Source of the DNA: Bacteroidales bacterium
GTDB lineage: Bacteria; Bacteroidota; Bacteroidia; Bacteroidales; Muribaculaceae
Assembly: GCA_910575615.1 (NCBI GenBank)
Contig: CAJTEX010000002.1
Location: 1-64,000, forward strand
DNA: 64,000 nt
Reading direction: 5' to 3'
Part shown: positions 1 through 47,208 of the stretch, piece by piece
Layout of the letters: every line of letters starts with the position of its first letter
How positions within the stretch are numbered: the first letter of the stretch is position 1
The notes under the pieces: generated by a model
Database searches by the model: none
Told to the model about the DNA's origin: nothing
What the model saw: only the letters and a program-made list of their open reading frames with translations
Made by a program: the position numbers and the translations under genes

Positions 1-231
1 CCGGGGGTTGGCGGCCGACAGGCCGCCAACCCCCGGTAAATACGCCAGGCGTGAGATTCTGAAAGAATCTTCTATATAGATAATCCAATTCAGAGGCAAC
101 ATCTATAAAAGATTCTTTCAGAATCTCACGCCTGATGTCAGTAACCCCGGGTTGCCGCTTGGTCGCCCACAAGGGGTTCCCGCGCGCCAACCCGGGGCTA
201 ATAATTAATGAATCCTACGGATTCGTGGGTG
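1..231. repeat. Nested inverted-repeat element, copy 1 (cut by window edge)
   Basis: GC-rich hairpin at 1-36 (16-bp perfect stem, 4-nt loop), then 26-bp perfect inverted repeats at 46-71 and 109-134 around a 37-bp core, then a second hairpin with 10-bp arms at 145-154 and 188-197, ending in GAATCC-tac-GGATTC at about 211-225. The same element recurs at 46567-46819 with its flanks in the opposite orientation. By comparison with that copy, the left terminal repeat here lies outside the window. No coding sequence is seen in it. Confidence 0.85.
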
Positions 232-46073: not shown

Positions 46074-46490
46074 ATGGCTGATTTTACAAACTATCCTTTC
46101 AACGCCCCTGGCCACCGCGCGACCACCGCGCGGATACTCGTCGTGGACGCCGACATCAGCGTCGGCGACATGATCCGCGACAACTTCGCGGCAGAAGGAT
46201 ACCATGTTGAGAGCTGCCTGTCGGGCGACGCCACCTACAACATCGACCTGTCACAATACAAACTGGTGTTGCTCGACCTAAGCATCGACGACAACAGCGG
46301 CCTCGGCCTCGTCGAGCAGATAAAACAGATATACGACCCGGGCGAAGTCGCCGTCATAGCCTACTCCGTCAGGATGTCTCCCGAGACCATCATCGCCGCC
46401 CTCAACGCCGGAGCCGACGACTACCTCATCAAACCCTTCTCCATCCGCGAGCTGAAAGCCCGCGTCCGCTCCGTCCTCCGCCGCCGCTGA
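46074..46490 (+). CDS. Stand-alone response regulator receiver protein
   Basis: A 138-aa protein that is only a CheY-like receiver. The phosphorylation Asp is in LVLLDLSIDD, the acidic pair in VVDADIS, the threonine-equivalent region in AYSVRM (serine), and the conserved lysine in YLIKPFS. There is no output domain, so it must signal by protein contact or act as a phosphate sink. No histidine kinase gene is adjacent. The N-terminal ~18 residues form an extra tail. Confidence 0.85.
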   Translation: MADFTNYPFNAPGHRATTARILVVDADISVGDMIRDNFAAEGYHVESCLSGDATYNIDLSQYKLVLLDLSIDDNSGLGLVEQIKQIYDPGEVAVIAYSVRMSPETIIAALNAGADDYLIKPFSIRELKARVRSVLRRR

Positions 46491-46507: not shown

Positions 46508-46566
46508 ATCGAATTCCATCAAAGCCTGCATCGGATTCCTCCAAAACCTGCATCGGATTCCATCCG
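46508..46566. repeat. 22-bp tandem repeat (2.7 copies)
   Basis: Three successive units start CATCGAATTCC, CATCGGATTCC and CATCGGATTCC with a 22-bp period. They sit directly against the left end of the palindromic element. Confidence 0.65.
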
Positions 46567-46819
46567 CGAATCCGGAGGATTCATTAACTATTAGCCCCGG
46601 GTTGGCGCACGGGAGCCCCTTGAGGGCGACCAAGCGGTAACCCGGGGTTGCTGACATCAGGCGTGAGATTCTGAAAGAATCTTTTATATATACAACCTCA
46701 TCTAAAGGCAACATCTATAAAAGATTCTTTCAGAATCCCACGCCTGGCGTGTTCACCGGGGGTTACCGGCCTGTCGGCCGCCAACCCCCGGCTAATAGTT
46801 AATGAATCCTCCGGATTCG
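46567..46819. repeat. Nested inverted-repeat element, copy 2 (complete, 253 bp)
   Basis: Bounded by 30-bp perfect terminal inverted repeats (46567-46596 and 46790-46819), MITE-like. Inside: hairpin arms CCCCGGGTT/AACCCGGGG (46595-46603, 46639-46647), hairpin arms CCGGGGGTT/AACCCCCGG (46756-46764, 46783-46791), and 26-bp inverted repeats (46658-46683, 46721-46746; one mismatch) around a 37-bp core. Each 26-bp arm contains its own small hairpin GATTCT-gaa-AGAATC. No coding capacity. Copy 1 is at 1-231. Confidence 0.85.
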
Positions 46820-46861
46820 TGGGCGAACCGCATATAGGGGTTGAAACCACTCAATACAACC

Positions 46862-47123: not shown

Positions 47124-47134
47124 GTTGTTGGTTG

Positions 47135-47208
47135 TCGGGGTGAGAAGACTCGAACTTCCGACCTCCACGTCCCGAACGTGGCGCGCTAACCAACTGTGCT
47201 ACACCCCG
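47135..47208 (-). tRNA. tRNA-Pro (anticodon CGG)
   Basis: Acceptor CGGGGTG / CACCCCG, discriminator A, no encoded CCA. Anticodon stem CCACG/CGTGG with loop TTCGGGA gives CGG. A -7 box TACCTTTG lies on the minus strand at 47282-47289. Confidence 0.94.

Follow-up and report, generated by a model that had tools for sequence, protein, structure and literature searches.

The window, a stretch of 64,000 bp corresponding to positions 1-64000 of contig C2 of a 3.13 Mb draft genome of a gut bacterium, considered to be of Muribaculaceae type on the basis of named relatives in its family group, was found to contain two copies of a nested palindromic repeat. Copy 2 is located between a gene for a response-regulator-like protein and a tRNA-Pro gene, with its first hairpin starting 77 bp past the stop codon of the former. 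Copy 1 (L009) lies at the very start of the window and is incomplete, as contig C2 begins within its B hairpin (Table 1).

Table 1. Features of the two repeat copies and neighbouring genes in the window
Feature	Coordinates	Strand	Remarks
Copy 1, cut by the start of contig C2	1..231	-	Core (72-108) flipped compared with its flanks
Gene upstream of copy 2	46074..46490	+	138 aa, response-regulator-like (by reading)
Copy 2, whole element	46555..46837	+	Outward conservation limits; A half left, B half right, conserved outer flanks included
H1 of the A half	46568..46582	+	GNA-triloop hairpin, GAATCC-GGA-GGATTC
Spacer ATTAACTATTAG	46583..46594	+	3' end is TTAG(C), the tag at the H2 foot
H2-A	46595..46647	+	GC-rich hairpin of the A half, long
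Left inner arm	46658..46691	+	34 nt, 94% complementary to 46713-46746; contains H3 (46667-46681, GATTCT-GAA-AGAATC)
37-bp core	46684..46720	+	Oriented to A/B like the majority (7 of 9 full copies); overlaps the inner arms at both ends
Right inner arm	46713..46746	-	Contains H3 (46723-46737)
H2-B	46756..46791	-	GC-rich hairpin of the B half, short
H1 of the B half	46804..46818	-	
tRNA-Pro, downstream of copy 2	47134..47208	-	

Copy 2 consists of two half units, designated here as A and B, which are inverted around the core. Each half unit is composed of hairpin H1 (GAATCC-G(T/G)A-GGATTC), a 12-nt spacer ending in TTAG, the GC-rich hairpin H2 (long in the A half and short in the B half), a further spacer, hairpin H3 (GATTCT-GAA-AGAATC) and TTTTATA, past which single halves diverge. 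The outer inverted repeats (46564-46618 and 46768-46822) match at 85%, with the outermost ~30 bp being perfect. An earlier note on this DNA had described perfect 30-bp ends, two GC hairpins, inner inverted repeats and a 37-bp core, an anatomy that was recovered here, the inner repeats measuring 34 nt (94%) compared with the 26 bp given previously. The single strand of copy 2 was predicted to fold with -101 kcal/mol (z = -17.9 compared with 200 shuffles), and the H1 and arm words occur three and four times in the window, compared with expectations of 0.02 and 0.00, respectively. Since conservation extends outside H1 by ~12 bp in the A half and by ~18 bp in the B half, the element was delimited to about 46555-46837; its ends are asymmetric beyond H1.

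A sequence search of the genome, by which copies at contig ends may be missed, identified nine full copies of this repeat of about 283 bp, together with about a dozen halves and derivatives. The copies are mostly extragenic, the distance to the closest ORF of at least 100 aa being mostly 56-597 bp, with various gene orientations and with some copies downstream of genes. For the comparison of core orientation, every copy was turned with hairpin A to the left and the cores were aligned both directly and in reverse. Two of the nine full copies, L005 and copy 1, were shown to carry a core that is inverted relative to the outer arms, as established by comparing copies at different sites of one genome, while the remaining seven cores mutually agree in orientation. 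The core of copy 1 scored +19.0 in reverse and +5.5 directly against that of copy 2, and the core of L005 scored +29.0 and +5.5, respectively, against that of L001. These alignment scores bear out the earlier claim of a core flipped relative to its flanks in one of the two window copies, and the genome-wide search proposed alongside it adds L005 as a second flipped copy, at a ratio of 7:2. As the arms and outer flanks retain their usual order, the flip is placed within or beside the inner arms. The A halves of L005 and copy 1 are 97% identical, so that either one or two flip events are possible.

Two derivatives exhibit deletions: the inner palindrome of L015 has been deleted between 5-bp GGCGT repeats, and L212 has been reduced to the outer flanks and one H1. 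Copies L013 and L019 have a longer left sequence in common, with an end closely matching ttcacaaggcgacATCTATAAAAG; it continues into an A half in one copy and a B half in the other, hinting at a longer ancestral interior. Contigs C1 (L211, C1:1-33) and C2 (window positions 1-36) both begin within one and the same B hairpin, where they overlap by 33 identical bases, and are probably neighbours; this hairpin is a perfect palindrome, possibly an assembly effect. A second element, a true MITE, was observed within the B half of copy L007 (L214, G000:C14:85600-86400; insert at about C14:85938-86168), with ends TATTGCTGTCCGGTAAAA and a 9-bp target duplication ATAATTAAT, and copies L010 and L012 are interrupted by ends similar to those of this MITE.

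The genome was found to encode one strong Y1 (HuH) transposase (PF01797, 88.6 bits; cut-off 23). Its gene (C1:216063-216515, 151 aa) takes the position of the core and is flanked by two inverted A halves (C1:215921-216041 and C1:216511-216633, the whole unit spanning C1:215921-216633), with its stop codon positioned within the right arm, and a third A half is present 415 bp beyond this unit. The deduced protein contains the motifs DHIH, WDGWQ and YIKGQKQHH (i.e. Y---Q--HH), and its sequence fits Y1 subclass 1.2, for which Quentin et al. 2018 (PMC6006769) gave DH[IV]H, Y---Q--HH, a length of ~148 aa and occurrence in Bacteroidetes. It passed the NCBIfam IS200/IS605 model (76 bits; cut-off 55) and scored below the cut-off of the REP_Tyr_transpos (RAYT) model (32.2 bits; cut-off 80), and its sequence matches in the PDB were the solved ISHp608 TnpA and related chains. 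H1 reads CCATTCCGGAGGAATGG in the halves flanking the gene and GAATCCGNAGGATTC in the dispersed copies, and the transposase and the dispersed copies are therefore not perfectly matched.

Relatives of this transposase (E≤1e-15) were detected in 90 of 198 family genomes, and nearly all of those examined retain the Y---Q--HH motif. Among the loci L026-L055, which were those returned by the searches and thus a non-random sample, 25 of 28 testable loci displayed inverted flanks at p<0.01 compared with mispaired flanks, and a clear inverted flank was absent from the other three. The motif-table row of L027, read on the wrong strand, is void, its inverted-flank score being unaffected, and the score of L107, an artefact of masked N, was excluded from the count. 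The flanks are wholly different in sequence between loci and recurrent in layout, consisting of a small hairpin, 8-11 nt, TA(G/A)CC, a GC hairpin and a small hairpin, which at some family loci form tandem arrays. At L038 and other family loci, the stems of H1 and H3 within a unit are often alike in sequence (GATGTC/GACATC), as though H3 opened the following unit of an array.

Counting perfect stems of at least 5 bp, 35 GNA and 32 TNC triloop hairpins were identified near the genes of the family, compared with 1.4 of each in shuffles (about 24-fold). Their distribution is strand-asymmetric, with GNA:TNC ratios of 30:2 upstream and 5:30 downstream of the genes, and the density of GNA hairpins is 3.76 per kb beside the genes, compared with 0.36 per kb distally in the same loci and 0.13 per kb at other Y1-like loci. 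In the family, 41 of 66 GNA hairpins are followed by TA[GA]C, mostly at 8-11 nt. GNA hairpins were also present at loci from Flavobacteria, Poribacteria and a planctomycete (41:3 upstream, 49 other loci), some of which carry TAGCC and the inverted flanks of which are less regular. The Flavobacteria-type H1 word occurs 1 to 11 times per genome, compared with 0 for a reversed control. Genome G117 harbours five further full-length units with a common end (H3 and then TTGTTAC or a closely similar sequence) and genome G191 about a dozen units, partial or full, including an inverted dimer; in both genomes these units are dispersed away from the Y1 gene. In Chryseobacterium koreense (L096), units of H1, TTA(T/A)CC and a hairpin form a tandem array beside a subclass 1.2 gene.

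Subclass 1.2 has been listed as lacking REPs and, generally, IS200-type terminal structures or hairpins (PMC6006769, the only paper in which the term was found in this sense). Most family loci are, on the contrary, flanked by inverted hairpin arrays, which, judged from the sequences compared, extend the published description, the lack of REPs being a descriptive and not a defining trait of the subclass; no paper describing the hairpin words was found among the hits of a literature search. It seems rather likely that subclass 1.2 possesses its own REP class across Bacteroidota, and perhaps in Poribacteria and Planctomycetes, represented by a strand-fixed GNA hairpin of variable stem as the putative recognition mark, 8-11 nt, TA(G/A)CC and a second hairpin, and that this class has spawned REPIN-like dimers in the genome studied here.

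In a relative from the same genus (G148), the gene upstream of copy 2 and the tRNA-Pro gene adjoin without the element between them; a base-exact empty site for copy 2 was not found. This relative does carry related hairpin units (L057-L083), the copies of which are too incomplete to reveal core orientation, and its draft (92% complete) gave no match to the Y1 transposase. Only traces of the element were found beyond the source genome in 14 genus and 397 family genomes, the DNA subfamily being nearly confined to that genome among the 397 with at most two candidates scored per genome. The arm sequence gave no matches in IMG/VR, and hence neither a phage link nor a further source of core orientations. 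Near-confinement to one genome and absence of the element from the orthologous interval both fit a recent spread in one lineage.

Taken together, the repeat is probably a REPIN-like non-autonomous mobile element that is mobilised in trans by the C1 enzyme of subclass 1.2, with core flips arising as hairpin replication errors. The mobile unit would be formed by the two REP-like half units inverted around the 37-bp spacer. The transposase presumably recognises single-stranded GNA hairpins and cuts nearby, thereby mobilising the A-core-B dimers. GNA loops form unusually stable DNA mini-hairpins, and Y1 enzymes, such as those of IS608 and ISDra2 and the REP transposases, bind folded single strands. 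Some TnpA-REP proteins read the bases of the hairpin loop (PMC8266576), and such recognition would leave a conserved, strand-fixed GNA loop while the stems vary. The related units in G148, in a draft (92% complete) with no Y1 match, speak against the proposed reading. During replication, the inner arms most likely fold into a hairpin at which the polymerase switches template, so that the loop becomes inverted; the flip is read in this manner because deletion derivatives (L015 and L212) occur in the same family.

The main rival explanation for the flip involves no inversion in place: copies would have swapped A and B arms through homologous recombination or gene conversion, using the H1 and arm sequences that they share. 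Such an exchange is conceivable, if on balance doubtful: the arms and H1 are common to all copies, the A halves of L005 and copy 1 are highly alike, and the same long left flank is joined to different halves in L013 and L019. However, the flipped copies keep the usual A/B order and their own outer flanks, and two exchanges per copy would therefore be needed. The tiny invertible switch suggested in the earlier note fares far worse and is considered very improbable. In the form considered here, a site-specific recombinase would invert the core via the 26-34 bp inner arms and thereby alter expression of a neighbour. The segment between the inner repeats does occur in both orientations, yet with a 7:2 bias, and the arms correspond to the H3 hairpin module found beside Y1 genes in other genera. 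The distances of the copies from genes of various orientations also count against it, and L015 and L212 carry deletions instead of inversions, indicative of a general instability of palindromes. By eye, the Bacteroidetes-type promoter word (TTTG or TAnnTTTG) was not seen in any of the nine core sequences, and a promoter switch was rejected on this basis together with the orientation bias. The core flip is most likely a by-product of the palindromes and not a regulated switch.

The suggestion of a MITE-like family mobilised in trans holds in spirit, as the family is dispersed and its halves flank the sole strong Y1 gene. It probably does not extend to a classical MITE: the likely partner is a single-strand transposase of the HuH type, and no target-site duplication was seen by eye beside the compared copies, which do possess terminal inverted repeats (TIRs). 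Mobilisation of a classical MITE by a DDE transposase via the 30-bp TIRs would agree with the perfection of these repeats and with a size of ~280 bp. It is nonetheless quite improbable, given that the true MITE of this genome exhibits a 9-bp duplication, that the ends are asymmetric beyond H1 and that the halves flank a Y1 gene and also exist singly. It is similarly unlikely, albeit worth considering, that the repeat is no longer mobile and is kept for gene expression as a structural RNA, a terminator or an mRNA-stability element. The mostly extragenic copies, some of them downstream of genes, and the very stable hairpins are consistent with such a role, whereas near-confinement of the subfamily to the source genome among 397 family genomes (few candidates being scored in each) and absence of the insert at one orthologous site, as in recent mobile DNA, speak against it. 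A secondary use in gene expression may accompany the preferred reading of a mobile, REPIN-like repeat.

Based on these comparisons, the transposases of subclass 1.2 seem to possess hairpin repeats of their own, which would provide a transposase subclass without a known DNA partner with a concrete candidate substrate and represent a sister case to REPIN/RAYT outside Proteobacteria, marked by a GNA loop signature. In addition, the flipped cores and deletion derivatives constitute a natural record of nested-palindrome rearrangement in bacterial chromosomes.

Among known systems, the REPIN/BIME elements and their RAYT (TnpA-REP) enzymes are similar in that a dispersed, extragenic and non-autonomous unit is built from two inverted REP-like palindromes, in that a single Y1 gene is located among the same palindromes, as in a REPtron, and in that the subfamily is confined to one lineage. 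Conversely, the transposase described here belongs by motif to subclass 1.2 and scores under the RAYT cut-off, and thus outside the class 2 RAYTs. The unit comprises three hairpins with GNA triloops and a TTAG/ATAG/TAACC tag, compared with the single GTAG-tagged hairpin of a REP, and its copy number is low (~20). The foot of H2 reads TTAG/ATAG or TAAC and not the 5' GT[AG]G type of REPs, G[TG]AG occurring instead across the H1 loop. IS200/IS605 elements (Y1 subclass 1.1, e.g. IS608 and ISDra2) are comparable with regard to the model cut-off passed, the ISHp608 TnpA match and hairpins near the ends. They differ in that the present enzyme carries the Y---Q--HH motif of subclass 1.2, no tnpB was seen, long inverted flanks are found in place of different left and right ends, and the non-autonomous units outnumber the gene. 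TIRYTs and TIRtrons (PMC3733652) likewise place a Y1 gene between inverted repeats that are also found dispersed; the published examples belong to subclasses 2.1, 2.2 and 2.5 and mostly carry GGGGWSAS repeats (PMC6006769), in contrast to subclass 1.2 with GNA hairpins here. Finally, the hairpin-associated small inversions of plastid genomes (e.g. PMC2903610) also involve a short loop between inverted repeats that is found in both orientations in association with a palindrome, although in the present case the loop lies within a multi-copy bacterial repeat.
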